From NCBI RefSeq assembly GCF_013410105.1, contig NZ_JACCCJ010000001.1:620001-684000 (forward strand): a stretch of DNA of 64,000 nt, written 5' to 3'. Source of the DNA: Sphingopyxis sp. JAI108. Its GTDB lineage: Bacteria; Pseudomonadota; Alphaproteobacteria; Sphingomonadales; Sphingomonadaceae. Shown here in pieces: positions 25,894-32,998 of this stretch. Position numbers and translations under genes: made by a program. The notes under the pieces were generated by a model that ran no database searches, was not told the DNA's origin, and saw only the letters and a list, made by a program, of their open reading frames with translations. How positions within the stretch are numbered: position 1 is the stretch's first letter; every line of letters begins with the position of its first letter.

Positions 25894-26673
25894 ATGGCCC
25901 GTCGCCGCCAGATCTACGAAGGCAAAGCCAAGATCCTTTACGAAGGCCCCGAACCGGGCACCTTGATCCAATATTTCAAGGACGACGCGACCGCGTTCAA
26001 CGCGCAGAAGCGCGGGACGATCAACGGCAAGGGCGTGCTCAACAACCGGATTTCGGAGCATGTCTTCACGCTGCTCGGCAATATCGGCGTGCCCACCCAC
26101 TTCATCCGCCGCCTCAACATGCGCGAGCAGCTGATCCGGCAGGTCGAGATCGTGCCGATCGAGGTGATCGTGCGCAATGTCGCGGCGGGCACGCTGTCGA
26201 AGCGTCTCGGGATCGAGGAAGGCACGCAGCTTCCGCGCACCCTGATCGAATATTGCTACAAGGACGACGCGCTCGGCGATCCGCTCGTCGCCGAGGAGCA
26301 TATCGCCTGCTTCAACTGGTGCAGCCAGGACGAGCTCCACGACATCCAGGACATGGCGATCCGCATCAACGACTTCATGTCGGGCATGTTCGCCGCGGTC
26401 GGCATCCGCCTCGTCGACTTCAAGCTCGAGTTCGGCCGCCTTTATGAAGGCGACTTCAGCCGCATCATCCTCGCCGACGAGATCAGCCCCGACGGCTGCC
26501 GTCTGTGGGACATGACGACGAACGAAAAGCTCGACAAGGACCGCTTCCGCCGCGATCTCGGCGGCGAGGTCGAGGCCTATCAGGAAGTCGCGCGCCGGCT
26601 GGGCCTGATGCCCGAGGGCGGCGAGAATGCCGTGCTCGACCTCGAAAGCCACCGCAAGAAAAAGGGTAGCTGA
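25894..26673 (+). CDS. purC: Phosphoribosylaminoimidazole-succinocarboxamide synthase
   Basis: A 259-residue SAICAR synthetase, adding aspartate to CAIR in de novo purine synthesis. Conserved segments are [69 protein letters not shown] and [20 protein letters not shown]. Normal length. Monocistronic here, followed by a hairpin terminator formed from a dispersed repeat. Confidence 0.97.
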
Positions 26674-26684
26674 GCCCATATGCA

Positions 26685-26741
26685 CCCCGGCGAAAGCCGG
26701 GGCCCAGCTAAGCTGACAAAGAACCCCGGCTTTCGCCGGGG
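26685..26741. repeat. Paired hairpin repeat, CCCCGGC-GAAA-GCCGGGG family (copy 1)
   Basis: Two copies of an 18-base hairpin in inverted orientation: CCCCGGCGAAAGCCGGGG at 26685-26702 and CCCCGGCTTTCGCCGGGG at 26724-26741. Each arm is itself a hairpin with a 7-bp stem, and on one strand the loop is a GAAA tetraloop. An identical pair occurs at 46491-46567. Confidence 0.8.
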
Positions 26742-26745
26742 TTTT
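26724..26745 (+). terminator. Terminator of purC, formed by the repeat
   Basis: The right arm of the repeat, ACCCCGGCTTTCGCCGGGG followed by TTTT, has the form of an intrinsic terminator 51 bases after the purC stop. The repeat has apparently been co-opted as a terminator between the convergent purC and lipoxygenase genes. Confidence 0.7.
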
Positions 26746-26755
26746 CATTTTTGCG

Positions 26756-28756
26756 TCAGATATTGATGCTCGTCGGGATCAAACTCGGCTGCAGGTAAGG
26801 GTAGGGCTGCATCCGCTCGCTATTGCGCGCCACAATCTCAGCCTCGACGCCCGCAAGCGCGGCCTTGAACCACGCCAGCGGGCCCTCGGCGCCCGTCACG
26901 CGCGGGTCCTGGAACCACAGCGGATAGGGAAAGGCGTTGCTGCGATAATCGCCGAGCGGGCGGTAGTGGACCGACCCCAACAGTTCCAGCACATTGAGCT
27001 GTTCGAGCGCGAGCGCCATCGGCGGCATCATCGCGAGCCAGCCCGCCTTGTCGTGACCGCGCTGGCCATTGGGCGCCGCCTGCCATCCCGCGCCCGTGAC
27101 GGCGGGGGAAAAGGCCATGATGTCCTTTTGCGGGAAATTGACCGCGGCGTGCTGCGCGCTCGCGGTGAAGATCACCATCGCGCAGATTTCGACAAGCCGC
27201 GCGCGGGTCGTGACGGGGCCGAAGCCCTTGATCTTCGCTTCGCCCGCGAGGCACGCTGCCCAGGCGGCGAGCTCGGTATCGGCTACGACGTCGGCGTCAT
27301 GCGCATAATAAAGATCGATATATTGCCGCGCCCATTCGTGGATCGCGTCCCACACAAGCAGTGCGTCGTCGCGATAGGGATAATCGGCGAGCGCCGAGTC
27401 GACGCCCACGCCGCGTTCTGCAAAGTCGGCGTGCGGCATCTTGCCGTAAAAGTCGAATGCCAGCCGCGCATCGACGGCAGCGAGCTGGCTCGACGCGATC
27501 GAGCCCGCGAAAATATGGTCGATCGGGCCGTCCGCTGCGATCAGCGACGTTGCCGCCTGTTCGTTGATGAACAAGGTGCCCTCGAAATGCGGGACAAGCA
27601 GCGCCCAGACCGGATGGACTTCGGCAAGATGGCGGTGCGTCGCGACCGCGAACGCCTCGATCACCAGATGGGTGCGCGCGAGATGCGCGAACAGCTCGTG
27701 ATAATTGCCGTCGGCGACCTGCACGATGAATTTCGCCATTTCCCATCCCCATAGCTTGTCGAAGGTCGGCGAGGGGGTGAAGATCGGCCAGTCGGCGGGG
27801 TCCTGCCCGCACTGGATCGCTACCGGCACCGCCGACGAGCCGCCCGGGGGCACCGCGAACAGAGCCATCGGCTGCCAGGCATATTTGGCAAGGCTGCCGT
27901 AAGTGCCTGGGTCGAGGACCTCGAGCGGCTTGTAGTCGAGCATGAACAGGCGCCTGTCGGCCAAGGCCGCCGCCAGCGTATCGCCATTGACGACCGCGGC
28001 ATATTGGGCGCCGCTCAGCGGGAAGTTCGCGGGCAGCGCATCGCCGGCCGCGGCGATCAGCATGCAGTTCGGCCCCTGCACGCGCAGCCGCGCGAACTCG
28101 GCATCGTCTTGAAACATATAGCTGACGCCCGGAACCGGCAGCGTAGCGAACAGCGCGCGATACGCCTCGACGCTCCGCGGCGTCTTGCTGCCGAGGCTGG
28201 TGGCCTCTTCGACCTTCATCAGATCCTCAAGCCGCTCCTTATAGCCTTTGAGCAACGCGATATGCGCGTCGCGCTCGGCGGCGGCGACGGCATTCTCGAC
28301 GTCGCCGACGATGTGTTCGAAGATATTGCCGCCGGTGTGGACGCCATGCTCGGCCGCGACCTTGGCGGTCGACGCTTCGATCGCGTCGCATTCGGTGAGC
28401 GCGGCTTCATAGGTGGCGCGCGAGCTGTCGAGTTCGCTCCCCAACTCCCCCGCGTCGACGCCGGCAAGCTTCACCGTCAAAGCGTTCCGAACAATGCCCA
28501 GCCCGACGCCGATCAGGATCACGAACCAGGCGATCGTCGGCTCGTCATTCTTCGGAACGGTCGTGGCGAGCGGCACGCCGGGCAGGGTCGGGACGTCCGT
28601 CGTCCATGTGTAAACGGACTGGGTAGCGGCCAGCTGCGCCGCGCGCGCCGCCTGTTGCGCGGGCGTATCGTCCTGCGGAAGCGTCGGGGAGGCGGACGGC
28701 ATCGGCACCGCCGGCGCGGCGCCGGATGGTTCGAGTTGCGGCATCGGGTAAGACAT
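26756..28756 (-). CDS. Bacterial lipoxygenase with N-terminal membrane segment
   Basis: A 666-residue iron-containing lipoxygenase, which adds O2 to polyunsaturated fatty acids to give hydroperoxides. All five iron ligands are visible: His358 and His363 in AHLARTHLVIE, His536 and Asn540 in FTASAQHAAVNF, and the C-terminal Ile666 in PTSINI. Other family segments are HPVWALLVPHFEGTLFINEQ, DYPYRDDALLVWDAIHEWAR and IDLYY. Ala401 aligns with the Coffa-Brash stereocontrol position, which predicts S chirality. There is no PLAT domain. Instead residues 1-70 are proline/alanine-rich, residues about 74-92 form a hydrophobic helix (TIAWFVILIGVGLGIVR), and residues 100-185 look like a charged helical stretch. 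Membrane-anchored location is inference. It is divergent from the diguanylate cyclase. Confidence 0.93.
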   Translation of the reverse strand: MSYPMPQLEPSGAAPAVPMPSASPTLPQDDTPAQQAARAAQLAATQSVYTWTTDVPTLPGVPLATTVPKNDEPTIAWFVILIGVGLGIVRNALTVKLAGVDAGELGSELDSSRATYEAALTECDAIEASTAKVAAEHGVHTGGNIFEHIVGDVENAVAAAERDAHIALLKGYKERLEDLMKVEEATSLGSKTPRSVEAYRALFATLPVPGVSYMFQDDAEFARLRVQGPNCMLIAAAGDALPANFPLSGAQYAAVVNGDTLAAALADRRLFMLDYKPLEVLDPGTYGSLAKYAWQPMALFAVPPGGSSAVPVAIQCGQDPADWPIFTPSPTFDKLWGWEMAKFIVQVADGNYHELFAHLARTHLVIEAFAVATHRHLAEVHPVWALLVPHFEGTLFINEQAATSLIAADGPIDHIFAGSIASSQLAAVDARLAFDFYGKMPHADFAERGVGVDSALADYPYRDDALLVWDAIHEWARQYIDLYYAHDADVVADTELAAWAACLAGEAKIKGFGPVTTRARLVEICAMVIFTASAQHAAVNFPQKDIMAFSPAVTGAGWQAAPNGQRGHDKAGWLAMMPPMALALEQLNVLELLGSVHYRPLGDYRSNAFPYPLWFQDPRVTGAEGPLAWFKAALAGVEAEIVARNSERMQPYPYLQPSLIPTSINI

Positions 28757-28877
28757 GGCGTGGCCTCCTGTCGGGCGCGAAACTAGGGGTCCGCTTGTCG
28801 GCGAACATGGTTAATATTTCGCAAGTCATCTGGCTCGGACGCGCGCCTAGGCCCGTGATAAGACAAGATTTCGTTCC

Positions 28878-28892
28878 TTAACCCCTGCTTTA
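28878..28892. promoter_or_regulatory. Imperfect CtrA-like box upstream of the diguanylate cyclase
   Basis: TTAA-N7-TTTA (TTAA at 28878, TTTA at 28889) differs from the CtrA consensus by one base and lies 24 bases before the diguanylate cyclase start, between it and the divergent lipoxygenase. Only weak evidence; a chance match is possible. Confidence 0.25.
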
Positions 28893-28915
28893 CCCGGCCT
28901 TGCTATCCCGCCCCC

Positions 28916-30061
28916 ATGACGGGGGTCTATCATACACTGCAGATGCGGTTCTTTCCGCCGATTCCGGACGCGATCAGGGACGATATCGCGTTGCTGCGCG
29001 CCAATCGCGTCGAAACGCTGACGCCGATGCTGTTCCTGATGCTGGCGGCGACGACGCCGACCGCCATCTATGCCGGGGTCGACAGCGTGCATCCGGTGAT
29101 CCGCATCGGCTTTCCCGTGATCCTCGCGGTCGTCGGCATCCTCGGCTTCCTGTTCCTGCGCCACAATCGCGGCCGCAGGATGAGCCCGCGCCGCGCGCGG
29201 CGCGTCATTCGCGAGGCGAGCTGGGTGTCGGGCATCACCGGCGCGATGTGCAGCCTGTGGACGGTGGCCAACTGGCTCGCGGCGCCGCCTGAGACGCACA
29301 GCTATTATGCGATGATCATGGCGATGGGGTCGCTCGCGACCGCTTACTGCCTGTCGTCGATCCGCTTCGCGACCTTCCTCAACCTCGGTGTCGGGCTCGG
29401 ACCGGTGTCGGTGCTAATGCTGACCTCGGGCAATCCGCCCGAAATCGCGGCGGGCACTAGCCTCGTCATCGCGACCCTGTTTCTGCTGCGCATGGTGGTG
29501 CAGCAGCACGGGCAGGTGATCGACCTGCTCGAATTGCAGCGCCAGATGCGCGAACTCGCGCACACCGACCCGCTCACCGGCCTCGCCAACCGCCGCGAAT
29601 TCGACCTGCGGCTCGACGAGGAAATCGCCAAGGCCGACGCGACGACCCCGTTCGCGATCGCGCTGCTCGACCTCAACGGGTTCAAGCCGATCAACGATCA
29701 GCACGGCCATGCGATCGGCGACGGCGTCCTGTGCGAGCTTGCCGCGCGGCTGCGCCGCAGCTGCGGCAGCCACGCGATCGTCGCGCGTCAGGGCGGCGAC
29801 GAATTCGCCATCCTCGTGCCCGCCGGCTCGCCGTTGCTCGGCACGGCGCTCGCCGACCATATCCTCGCCGCGCTGGCGGCACCGTACCGCATAGACGGGC
29901 GGTCGATCGGCGTCGGTGCGGGCGTCGGCACCGCGAGCTGGCCCGAACATGGCACAACCGCGCGCGACCTGTTCGAAGTCGCCGACCGCGCGCTCTATGC
30001 GGCGAAGGCCGCCAATCGCGCCCATATGTCGTCTGTCGAAAGCGTCGACCGGGTCGCGTGA
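28916..30061 (+). CDS. Membrane-bound diguanylate cyclase (GGDEF)
   Basis: A 381-residue protein with an N-terminal membrane domain of about six hydrophobic segments (residues 30-195: TPMLFLMLAATTPTAIYAGV, FPVILAVVGILGFLFL and others) and a C-terminal GGDEF domain (about 215-370) with LAHTDPLTGLANRREFDLRL, LDLNGFKPINDQHGHAIGD and the intact RQGGDEFAILV active site. It makes cyclic di-GMP. The inhibitory RxxD I-site is not conserved (GSHA in its place), so product inhibition may be absent. An alternative ATG is at 28943. Divergent from the lipoxygenase. Confidence 0.94.
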   Translation: MTGVYHTLQMRFFPPIPDAIRDDIALLRANRVETLTPMLFLMLAATTPTAIYAGVDSVHPVIRIGFPVILAVVGILGFLFLRHNRGRRMSPRRARRVIREASWVSGITGAMCSLWTVANWLAAPPETHSYYAMIMAMGSLATAYCLSSIRFATFLNLGVGLGPVSVLMLTSGNPPEIAAGTSLVIATLFLLRMVVQQHGQVIDLLELQRQMRELAHTDPLTGLANRREFDLRLDEEIAKADATTPFAIALLDLNGFKPINDQHGHAIGDGVLCELAARLRRSCGSHAIVARQGGDEFAILVPAGSPLLGTALADHILAALAAPYRIDGRSIGVGAGVGTASWPEHGTTARDLFEVADRALYAAKAANRAHMSSVESVDRVA

Positions 30062-30103
30062 CGACGGCTTGACCGTCCGCGGGGTGGCGGCCACATCGGG
30101 ACC

Positions 30104-32998
30104 ATGACCAAAAACCTCGTTCGGCGCGCCTCGACCGCGCTGTCGCCACTCGTCCTCCTCATCGCCACGACTGCTCCGGCTTATGCCGGGGAAGCGTCCG
30201 CGAAGGCGGCGGCGACCACGACAGTCAACCCGCAGGATGCGGCGGCAAACGCATGGAATTTCGTCGCCAGCGACATTCCGGTCGACCCGAACATCGTCTT
30301 TGGCGTGCTGCCGAACGGGATGAAATATGCGCTGCTGAAAAACAGCACGCCCAAGGACAGCGTCGTGCTCCGCATGCGCTTCGACGTCGGCAGCTTCGCC
30401 GAAGCCGACGACCAACGCGGCCTCGCCCATTTCCTCGAACATATGGCGTTCAACGGTTCGACCCATGTGCCCGAGGGTGAGATGATCAAGCTGCTCGAAC
30501 GCAAGGGGCTGGCGTTCGGCGCCGACACCAATGCCTCGACCGGGTTCGACGAGACGGTCTACAAGCTCGACCTGCCGGGTGCGTCGGACGATTTGATCGA
30601 CACCGGGCTGATGCTGATGCGCGAGGCGGCGAGCGAGCTGACGATCGATCCCGCCGCAGTCGACCGCGAGCGCGGCATCATCCTCTCCGAACGCCGCGCG
30701 CGCGATACCTACCAACTGCGCAGCCTGATCGACCAGCTCGACTTCCAGATGAAGGGGATGACGGTGGCAAGCCGCATCCCCGTCGGCACCGAAGAGGTGA
30801 TCCGCACCGCGCCCGCGGCGCGGCTTCGCGACCTTTACGACCGCTATTACCGGCCCGAGCGCGCGACGCTGGTGATGGTCGGCGATTTCGACCCTGCGGC
30901 GGTCGAGGCGAAGATCAAGGCGCGCTTTGCGGACTGGAAGGGGCGCGGCCCCGCGGGCGCCGATCCCGATATCGGCAATGTCGACTATGCCCGTCCCGCC
31001 GCCGCCGACGATTTCGTCGATCCCGCGATCCAGGATTCGGTGACGATCGCGCGCTTCAAGCCATGGGTGGACGAGCGCGATACCAAGGCGAAGCGCGCCC
31101 GCAAGCTGGCCGAGGATGTCGGTGAGGCGATCGTCAGCCGCCGGCTCGCGAAGATCGCGCTCCGGGAAGATTCGCCGATCCTCACCGGCTATTTCAGCGA
31201 CGCCGAGGGGTGGAAGATTTTCGATCAGGTCACCGTCGGCGCGGTCGCGAAGGAAGGCGCGTGGAAAGAGGCGCTCGCGCTCATCGAGCAGGAACAACGC
31301 CGCGCGATCGAACATGGCTTTACCCAGGCCGAGGTCGATGAGCAGCTCGCGATCCGCCGCACCGCGTTCCGGAATGCCGTCGCGGGCGTGACGACGCGGC
31401 GCAGCGAGACGCTCGCCGACGCGCTGGTCGCGGCGGCCGAGGGCGATTTCGTCTTCACACGCCCCGAAACCTCGCAGGCGCTGTTCGAGGCCGTCGCGCC
31501 GTCGCTCGACGCCGCCGCGGTCACCGCCGCCTTTCGCAAGCGGATGGAGGGGCTCAGCCCGCCGCTCGCGCGTGTGACAACGAAAAAACCGGTGGAGGGC
31601 GGCACCGCGGCGATCCTCGCCGACCTCCAGGCATCAGCCAAGGTCGCGGTCGCCGCGCCTGCCGAGGCCGCGACCGCCGCCTTCGCTTACGATGATTTCG
31701 GCACGCCAGGAAAAATCGTCAGCGACGAACGCGTCGAGGACCTCAATATCCGCCGCATCCGCTTCGCCAACAATGTGATGCTCAACATCAAGACGACCGA
31801 TTTTCAGAAGGACAAGGTCATGGTGTCGCTGCGCGTCGACGGCGGCAACCTGCTCGCGACGAAGGGCGATCCGACGAAGGTGTCGCTCGCGGGTTCGCTG
31901 ATGCTCGGCGGGCTGGAAGCGCACAGCTATGACGAACTGCGCTCGATCCTCGCGGGCAAGACCATCAGCCCCGTCTTCGGCAATGCCACCGACAGCTTTG
32001 GCGGCAGCGCGGTGACCTCGCCCGAGGATTTCGCGCTGCAGGCGAAGCTGATGGCCGCCTATTTGATCCATCCCGGCTATCGCGCCGACGGGCTCGCGCT
32101 GATCCGCCGCGTGCTGCCGCAGCAATATGCCGCGAACGACGCGACCCCGGCGGCGGTGATCGGCCGCGATGCGGGCGGCATTCTCGCCAACGACGATCCG
32201 CGGTCGCAGACGCCGCCGCTCGACAAGGTGATGGCGCTCGACTGGGCGCAGCTCGAACCCGCGATCGCCGACAGCTTCGCGCACGGCGCGATCGAGATCG
32301 GCGTCGTCGGCGACATCGGCGAACAGGCGGCGATCGACGCGATCGCGGCGACCTTCGGCGCCTTGCCCGAGCGGCGCGCCGCCTTCGACCCGCGCGCCGA
32401 CGCGCGCGTCCGCGAATATGCGACCGACCGCAGCGAACGCACGTTGATCCACAAGGGGCCGGCCGAGCAGGCGGAACTGCGCGTTTATTGGCCCGCGCGC
32501 GATGATAGCGACCTCGCCGAGGCGATGCGCCTGAACCTTCTCGCGCGCGTGATGCAGCTCAAGCTGACCGAGGAGCTGCGCGAGCGGCTCGGCGAAAGCT
32601 ACAGCCCCGGCGCGGCGGCAAGCCTGTCGGACGAATTTCCGGGCTATGGCCACATCTTTGCCGCGAGCAATGTCGATTATAAGGATTTGGCGACGACCCG
32701 CGCGGCGATTTTCGCCATAGCGAAGGAATTCCGCGATACGCCGGTCGACGCGGACCTGCTCGACCGCGCACGCCGGCCGCTGGTCGAGGCGATGGTGAAA
32801 TCGCGGCGCGAGAACAGCTATTGGCTGAACTATGTCGCGGAGGCGGCAACGCACGCCGACCGCCTCGACCGCAGCCGCAACGGCATCGCCGAGGTCGAAG
32901 CGGCGACCCCGGCCGAGTTGCAGACGCTCGCGCGCCGCTACCTCGCCGACGACAAGGCGCTGGTGATCAAGGCGGTCAGCGACAAGGCGGGGCGCTGA
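30104..32998 (+). CDS. M16 family (insulinase-like) metallopeptidase
   Basis: A 964-residue periplasmic peptidase with a signal peptide (VLLIATTAPAYAGEA). The inverted zinc motif HxxEH is intact at His109-Glu112-His113 (RGLAHFLEHMAFNGSTHVPE), with the downstream acidic region DRERGIILSERRARDTYQLR. Length and the four-domain layout match two-repeat M16B/pitrilysin enzymes fused in one chain; the second half (LRVDGGNLLATKGDPTKVSL) lacks a zinc motif, as usual. Probably cleaves exported peptides. Co-directional with sodC. Confidence 0.94.
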   Translation: MTKNLVRRASTALSPLVLLIATTAPAYAGEASAKAAATTTVNPQDAAANAWNFVASDIPVDPNIVFGVLPNGMKYALLKNSTPKDSVVLRMRFDVGSFAEADDQRGLAHFLEHMAFNGSTHVPEGEMIKLLERKGLAFGADTNASTGFDETVYKLDLPGASDDLIDTGLMLMREAASELTIDPAAVDRERGIILSERRARDTYQLRSLIDQLDFQMKGMTVASRIPVGTEEVIRTAPAARLRDLYDRYYRPERATLVMVGDFDPAAVEAKIKARFADWKGRGPAGADPDIGNVDYARPAAADDFVDPAIQDSVTIARFKPWVDERDTKAKRARKLAEDVGEAIVSRRLAKIALREDSPILTGYFSDAEGWKIFDQVTVGAVAKEGAWKEALALIEQEQRRAIEHGFTQAEVDEQLAIRRTAFRNAVAGVTTRRSETLADALVAAAEGDFVFTRPETSQALFEAVAPSLDAAAVTAAFRKRMEGLSPPLARVTTKKPVEGGTAAILADLQASAKVAVAAPAEAATAAFAYDDFGTPGKIVSDERVEDLNIRRIRFANNVMLNIKTTDFQKDKVMVSLRVDGGNLLATKGDPTKVSLAGSLMLGGLEAHSYDELRSILAGKTISPVFGNATDSFGGSAVTSPEDFALQAKLMAAYLIHPGYRADGLALIRRVLPQQYAANDATPAAVIGRDAGGILANDDPRSQTPPLDKVMALDWAQLEPAIADSFAHGAIEIGVVGDIGEQAAIDAIAATFGALPERRAAFDPRADARVREYATDRSERTLIHKGPAEQAELRVYWPARDDSDLAEAMRLNLLARVMQLKLTEELRERLGESYSPGAAASLSDEFPGYGHIFAASNVDYKDLATTRAAIFAIAKEFRDTPVDADLLDRARRPLVEAMVKSRRENSYWLNYVAEAATHADRLDRSRNGIAEVEAATPAELQTLARRYLADDKALVIKAVSDKAGR

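Follow-up and report, generated by a model that had tools for sequence, protein, structure and literature searches.

A lipoxygenase gene head to head with a predicted membrane-bound diguanylate cyclase gene in Sphingopyxis and related genera

We analyzed a 64,000-nucleotide stretch of the genome of Sphingopyxis sp. JAI108 (contig NZ_JACCCJ010000001.1, positions 620,001 to 684,000; hereafter, the window), in which a lipoxygenase (LOX) gene on the minus strand and a gene for a GGDEF-domain protein, a predicted diguanylate cyclase, on the plus strand are transcribed away from each other. The original prediction for this DNA had described the LOX; it named no strand and overlooked the conserved neighbouring partner. 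From gene order and sequence comparison, we interpret the LOX gene and the cyclase gene as an old two-gene divergon. The features of the locus are as follows, in window coordinates.

26756..28756, minus strand: lipoxygenase gene, 666 amino acids, LoxA-type, with neither a PLAT match nor a visible export leader
28757..28915, no strand: intergenic region common to the divergent pair, 159 bp
28764..28768, minus strand: GGAGG, Shine-Dalgarno-like, just 5′ of the LOX ATG (position and role by inspection)
28806..28822, minus strand: conserved block GCGAAATATTAACCATG on the LOX side, the only exact copy in the genome
28878..28892, plus strand: conserved motif TTAA-N7-TTTA, 23 bp before the GGDEF start
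28916..30061, plus strand: divergent GGDEF (diguanylate cyclase) gene, 381 amino acids, six predicted long helices and a GGDEF domain
26720..26745, plus strand: terminator-like hairpin between the convergent purC and LOX genes (such matches in the region do not exceed the shuffled mean)

The LOX reading frame extends from an ATG at 28756 to the end of its stop codon at 26756, on the minus strand. PF00305 is the sole Pfam match of the encoded protein (E 8.3e-58, residues 253-648, 196.8 bits against a cut-off of 23.6); the same search returned no match to PLAT, a domain that the original prediction had described as absent. That prediction had also listed His358, His363, His536, Asn540, the terminal Ile666 and Ala401, and all of them stand at those positions. 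Three His, one Asn and the C-terminal Ile are the established iron ligands of lipoxygenases. In the pairwise alignment with Pseudomonas aeruginosa LoxA, the ligands pair with H377, H382, H555, N559 and I685, and Ala401 pairs with A420, where the chain of the mutant 5lc8 has Gly. Among 73 non-identical LOX proteins, a set that excludes the window's own copy (L001), four fragments of a 32%-identity lipoxygenase (L040-L043) and identical duplicates, H358, H363 and A401 are invariant (73/73), while H536, N540 and I666 are kept in 72 and fall on a gap in the remaining row. The gap row is probably the short L024 frame, which is listed with an in-frame TAG. The ratio of nonsynonymous to synonymous substitution rates (dN/dS) of LOX is 0.11-0.17 against five congeners, and the gene is thus under purifying selection. 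The constancy of the ligands, together with this low ratio, points to an intact, selected lipoxygenase. The protein almost certainly belongs to the lipoxygenase family, and we propose that it is a non-haem iron lipoxygenase of the LoxA type, which would add O2 to polyunsaturated fatty acids. As Ala at the Coffa-Brash site presumably specifies S products, S stereochemistry is predicted for the window enzyme. The copy at L124 (G378) has one in-frame TAG in the LOX frame and may be broken, and its adjoining cyclase frame is unusually long (572 amino acids).

The alignment with LoxA (PDB entries 4g32, 4rpe, 5ir4 and 5lc8) spans residues 23-666 with E 8e-156, and tblastn gives 43% identity over 93% of the query. 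The five ligands are the same, Ala occupies position 420 in LoxA, and the N-terminal region of the window protein is collinear with that of LoxA from residue 23, in place of a PLAT domain. A structure model and a search of the lipoxygenase family had been suggested as a check. The model is weak, with a mean predicted local distance difference test score (pLDDT) of 62.5 from 25 sequences; the 50 best matches listed are all lipoxygenases, and the top one is LoxA 4g32 (Z 26.9, root-mean-square deviation (rmsd) 4.8, 559 residues aligned). The original prediction had not recognized the form of this protein among known ones, and the alignment and the weak model both match it best to the crystallised LoxA. 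The next-best PDB sequence group is the LOX of a different organism, Enhygromyxa salina (8x8f, E 6e-131), whose N-terminal helix region matches weakly, and the Cyanothece LOX follows as a further solved relative.

The N-terminus distinguishes the window protein from LoxA. LoxA begins with MKRRSVLLSGVALSGTALA, and a Rhodococcus homolog carries RRRLLGLSALIPAVSLG near its start; we take both to be typical export leaders. The window protein shows no such leader. Its N-terminus is rich in Pro and Ala (MSYPMPQLEPSGAAPAVPMPSASPTLPQ), and a crude hydropathy test detected neither RR nor a comparable hydrophobic leader at its start. By the same test, with assumed start codons, the leader hydropathy is at most 1.50 in the 66 of the 73 family proteins that could be scored (seven could not), as compared to 1.69 in LoxA. 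Since no export leader was seen, the window LOX is probably intracellular; it may act as LoxA does, but we do not put it forward as a secreted enzyme of that kind. LoxA is described as secreted by P. aeruginosa in the available part of one report (PMC6702342).

The partner protein contains a GGDEF domain (PF00990, E 5.1e-39), and the GGDEF motif is intact in all 21 aligned orthologs. The RxxD inhibitory site, which is optional in diguanylate cyclases, is absent in the same 21 sequences. In the AlphaFold model (mean pLDDT 85.9, predicted template-modelling score (pTM) 0.58), six long helices precede the GGDEF domain. Pfam and NCBIfam match only the GGDEF part and the preceding linker, and neither names an N-terminal sensor domain. 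ImcA of P. aeruginosa (8wcn) is, among the matches listed, the one solved structure that fits the model over nearly its full length (340 residues superposed, Z 20.5, rmsd 4.0). According to the accessible portion of its description, ImcA consists of six transmembrane segments and a GGDEF domain, and the transmembrane domain is needed for its activity and for the binding of IsmP (PMC10904736). The two proteins differ in two respects: the sequence match is confined to residues 194-369 of the partner (E 1.2e-15), and the partner of ImcA is IsmP, which is part of an iron response and is not a lipoxygenase. From these similarities, we predict that the GGDEF protein is a membrane-bound diguanylate cyclase, which would make cyclic di-GMP (c-di-GMP).

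The linkage of the two genes is constant within the genus. LOX occurs in 36 of the 80 Sphingopyxis genomes in our genus sample, and all 36 have the order purC–LOX–GGDEF, with the LOX and GGDEF genes head to head and their starts less than 300 bp apart; a gene for an M16 peptidase then follows in the genus loci listed. The GGDEF gene is also head to head with LOX in all 18 loci that we fetched from 11 other genera, and the arrangement is thereby found in 12 genera. No purC or M16 match was detected in these 18 loci. When their open reading frames were clustered all-against-all, LOX was recovered in 18 and GGDEF in 17 (18 by tblastn), and both in 11 of the 11 genera. The other clusters spanning at least six genera are, by their coordinates, shadow frames overlapping LOX or GGDEF, and the next true neighbour family reaches four of the 11 genera (families in at least three genera were considered, and the best 25 were listed). 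Among 19 loci of named relatives outside Sphingopyxis, the pair is present in 12, LOX stands alone in four, L082 has no partner, and two (L069 and L072) cannot be judged, as their sequences end too near LOX to show the neighbour. In the four loci with LOX alone (L065, L067, L068 and L073), no GGDEF gene lies within 6.7-8 kb upstream, and each of these genomes carries the GGDEF gene elsewhere, with 54-55% identity in the N-terminal part.

Moreover, the two genes co-occur. The GGDEF ortholog, defined by a threshold of E ≤ 1.4e-100 (next match, 2.6e-45), is present in 50 of the 80 genus genomes, including all 36 with LOX (Fisher 1.6e-11); five of the 30 genomes counted as lacking it have a distant member with E from 2.6e-45 to 1.3e-33 (G011, G058, G074, G075 and G063). 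In the family sample of 397 genomes, at E ≤ 1e-25, the GGDEF family occurs in 36: in 23 of the 23 genomes with a LoxA-type LOX, and in 13 of the 374 others (Fisher 1.9e-28). The LOX and cyclase trees correlate with r 0.855 over 40 loci, and none of 2000 permutations gave a value as high. Since there are 17 GGDEF places in the genome, we estimate that a random gene would adjoin one in about 1% of cases. The class and phylum samples yielded too few LOX loci for a test of linkage outside the family. In the open-licence literature, judged largely by titles, the starts of abstracts and passages, no report of a LOX–cyclase gene pair was found.

The region between the two genes is also conserved. Its length is 154-171 bp in 27 of the 36 LOX-bearing genus genomes; the 177-240 bp measured in the other nine are longer because, as judged by eye, the BLAST match begins inside LOX. 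The genus alignment contains two conserved blocks. On the LOX side, TTAACC is present in all 36 of these intergenic regions and TTAACCAT in 35. TTAACC also lies upstream of the GGDEF gene in five of 12 genus genomes without LOX, in 12 of 12 pair loci of the named relatives and in 13 of the 18 fetched loci of other genera; the means for shuffled sequences are below one sequence in each set. On the cyclase side, TTAA-N7-TTTA is located 22-24 bp before the GGDEF start in all 36 genomes with LOX and in all 12 fetched genus genomes without it, and it occurs in the intergenic region of 11 of the 12 pair loci of the named relatives. Its spacing resembles that of TTAA-N7-TTAA, which we take to be the CtrA consensus; our literature search found no printed CtrA motif for Sphingomonadales. 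A scan of 26600-30200 for sigma-70 promoters found none. In some genomes (L011, L020, L055, L013 and L015), the LOX frame stays open 5′ of the usual start, and in L055 it runs through the conserved intergenic block (MTCEILTM). Because the 5′ spacing varies between genomes by insertions and deletions, we read this upstream open frame as regulatory DNA rather than as coding sequence.

What happens to the pair when LOX is lost? Fourteen genus genomes have the cyclase and no LOX, and we fetched 12 of them, leaving out G043 and G068, in which the cyclase lies at a contig end and the missing LOX may thus be an assembly gap. In all 12, the position expected for LOX is still bordered by purC and by the GGDEF gene, which are 66-303 bp apart in nine genomes and 1.6-1.7 kb apart, with intervening genes, in three. 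These genomes are scattered on the tree of the PurC, GGDEF and M16 proteins. With LOX placed at the midpoint root, eight losses are enough to explain the pattern; parsimony requires eight changes, as compared to a mean of 10.9 and a minimum of 6 with shuffled labels. By eye, G005 retains the LOX-side block, the ribosome-binding sequence and the apparent first LOX codons, and G008 retains the LOX-side block; in both, LOX looks to have been lost in place. LOX can thus be dispensed with, and the GGDEF gene, kept at the same place in the genomes without LOX, survives its loss.

A separate observation concerns six genus genomes that carry a two-gene unit between purC and the LOX/GGDEF position, three without LOX (L111, L112 and L119) and three with it (L084, L090 and L091). 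Judging from the L112 copies, the unit encodes a fatty acid hydroxylase (PF04116) and a phospholipid/ICMT-type methyltransferase (PF04191); in the other five genomes it was assigned by similarity, by eye. In the three LOX-less genomes, the neighbour of the cyclase is another lipid-modifying enzyme.

How could a lipoxygenase and a diguanylate cyclase work together? We propose the following lipid-oxylipin to c-di-GMP module. First, polyunsaturated lipids of mainly external origin, algae being one possible source, would be oxygenated inside the cell by LOX. Second, the cyclase would use its six-helix membrane part to sense the substrate or the hydroperoxide product, either directly or indirectly. 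Finally, the cyclase would set the c-di-GMP level and thereby the choice between swimming and settling. That the pair is a functional unit of some kind is probable in our judgment, and we lean slightly toward this particular module. The narrower version, in which the LOX hydroperoxide is the native, direct input of the cyclase and sets c-di-GMP in many Sphingomonadaceae, is doubtful. An internal source of polyunsaturated fatty acids is possible: the genome has three FA_desaturase places, of which two exceed the Pfam cut-off and the third falls short of it. The two family members might supply the substrate; none of the three comes near an NCBIfam cut-off for a named fatty-acid desaturase.

Parallels in P. 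aeruginosa support a link between lipoxygenase and c-di-GMP by analogy. Oxylipins made there from oleic acid, by a diol synthase and not by LoxA, inhibit flagellar motility and promote biofilm formation, according to the available text of one study (PMC5155153). The accessible sections of two others state that loxA is induced in biofilm (PMC6702342) and that transcription of the loxA operon drops under a compound interfering with c-di-GMP signalling (PMC8271024). The papers that we encountered mostly view the lipoxygenases of bacteria as biocatalysts or as tools used against a host. If the module is correct, bacterial oxylipins would have a named sensor, and the lipoxygenases of Sphingomonadaceae would have a role; if direct sensing holds as well, strains with the cyclase and without LOX would be listeners to the oxylipins of their neighbours. 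If the module fails, the linkage still needs an explanation, most simply by shared regulation.

Several points weigh against the proposed module. The cyclase is present without LOX in 14 of the 50 genus genomes that have it and in 13 of the 36 in the family sample, and it therefore cannot depend on this lipoxygenase alone. Conversely, the genome of L082, with a LOX of 52% identity, has no match to the N-terminal part of the cyclase, and no cyclase is annotated within about 3 kb of LOX in P. aeruginosa, Rhodococcus, Pantoea and Acaryochloris (four of the seven plasmid matches were examined). The cyclase-side motif occurs in just five of the 18 fetched loci of other genera, and both intergenic motifs were defined and counted after the alignment was seen, just as the limit for the GGDEF family in the family sample (E ≤ 1e-25) was set after the list was seen. 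The Fisher P values take no account of relatedness and make the association look stronger than it is, and common descent inflates both the co-occurrence and the tree correlation. Lastly, a divergent pair may share a promoter region alone.

This last point leads to the strongest alternative, in which LOX acts on its own in the catabolism or detoxification of exogenous polyunsaturated lipids, and the cyclase is its neighbour solely by virtue of a conserved regulatory region that drives both genes, possibly through a CtrA-like regulator, without any lipid sensing. The conserved motifs within the short common intergenic region fit this explanation, and so does the fact that all 12 of the fetched genomes without LOX have retained both the cyclase and its own motif; divergent pairs are, as general knowledge has it, often co-regulated. 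On the other hand, shared regulation leaves unexplained why the four genomes in which the genes lie apart still keep both, and why, in the family sample, every genome with a LoxA-type LOX has the cyclase family as well (23/23). We regard this explanation as a serious possibility, though an unlikely one.

Hitch-hiking by descent, in which two unrelated genes stood side by side by chance in an ancestor and have simply stayed together, is improbable. The LOX and cyclase trees are similar, an agreement that vertical descent alone could give, and all of the pair-bearing genera in our genome samples fall in one family. However, in the 18 loci from the 11 other genera, every other true neighbour family is limited to four genera or fewer, although purC flanks the pair throughout the LOX-bearing genus genomes. 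In addition, both genes have been retained in the four genomes where they are apart.

A LOX tethered to the membrane through a helix at about residues 74-92 is very improbable. In its favour, the hydropathy maximum at residue 75, which would be compatible with a membrane helix, exceeds the best window after residue 200 in the same protein (1.57), and the weak model has one helix at 75-101. Against it, LoxA and orthologs such as L074 have charged residues in the same helix, other members of this fold reach 1.78 in windows after residue 200, and N-terminal maxima within the genus lie between 1.33 and 2.12. The original prediction of a transmembrane helix at 74-92 was thus right as to the hydrophobic stretch, for which the best 19-residue Kyte-Doolittle mean is 2.02 at residue 75, and probably wrong as to its spanning the membrane. 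The stretch is collinear with LoxA residues ~102-120, where LoxA reads LPNVDWLLKTAGVIVELIV, charged residues included; the ortholog L074 (58% identity) reads PSIEWWFKVLEVGIAILEN, with K/E in the middle of the helix. Hydropathy over the 73 proteins and the ortholog alignment make the anchor unlikely, and we judge the helix at ~75 to be part of the LoxA fold.

Taken by itself, the enzyme is an unremarkable representative of a known family, because 36 of the 80 genus genomes encode it and a lipoxygenase of the same genus has been published. The latter is an arachidonate 9S-lipoxygenase of Sphingopyxis macrogoltabida (Kim et al. 2022), and the portion of the literature available to us describes its use for making 11,17-diHDoPE. 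As the 36 LOX genes of the genus form one orthologous group at one locus, the S. macrogoltabida enzyme is very probably an ortholog of the window LOX. Lipoxygenases are rare in broad samples, in line with the original prediction, which had called them rare in bacteria: they were found in two of 337 genomes in the class sample (the window's own genome and one distant type) and in two of 349 in the phylum sample, where both belong to the genus of the window, yet they are common within that genus. The best-segment identity of the window LOX is 74-89% to its Sphingopyxis relatives, 68-72% to Erythrobacter/Porphyrobacter and kin, and 56-58% to Parasphingorhabdus/Sphingorhabdus and kin; one metagenome-assembled genome gives 52%.

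Other lipoxygenases were met in passing. The family contains a distant type with 32% identity, at L140 (G209) and L141 (a second copy in G279), with no cyclase match nearby; this type was not counted as LoxA-type in the co-occurrence analysis. A weak PF00305 match is present in G695, from another family of the class. In the one P. aeruginosa record examined, loxA differs from the window LOX in having no cyclase neighbour. A loxA-like gene (L098) is carried on the 847-kb P. aeruginosa plasmid p2014S05-249-1, which is typed as conjugative and comes from a blood isolate. On a Rhodococcus qingshengii plasmid (L099), a gene for an acyl-ACP thioesterase precedes the LOX gene, whose product has an RR-type leader; this is another context linked to lipids.

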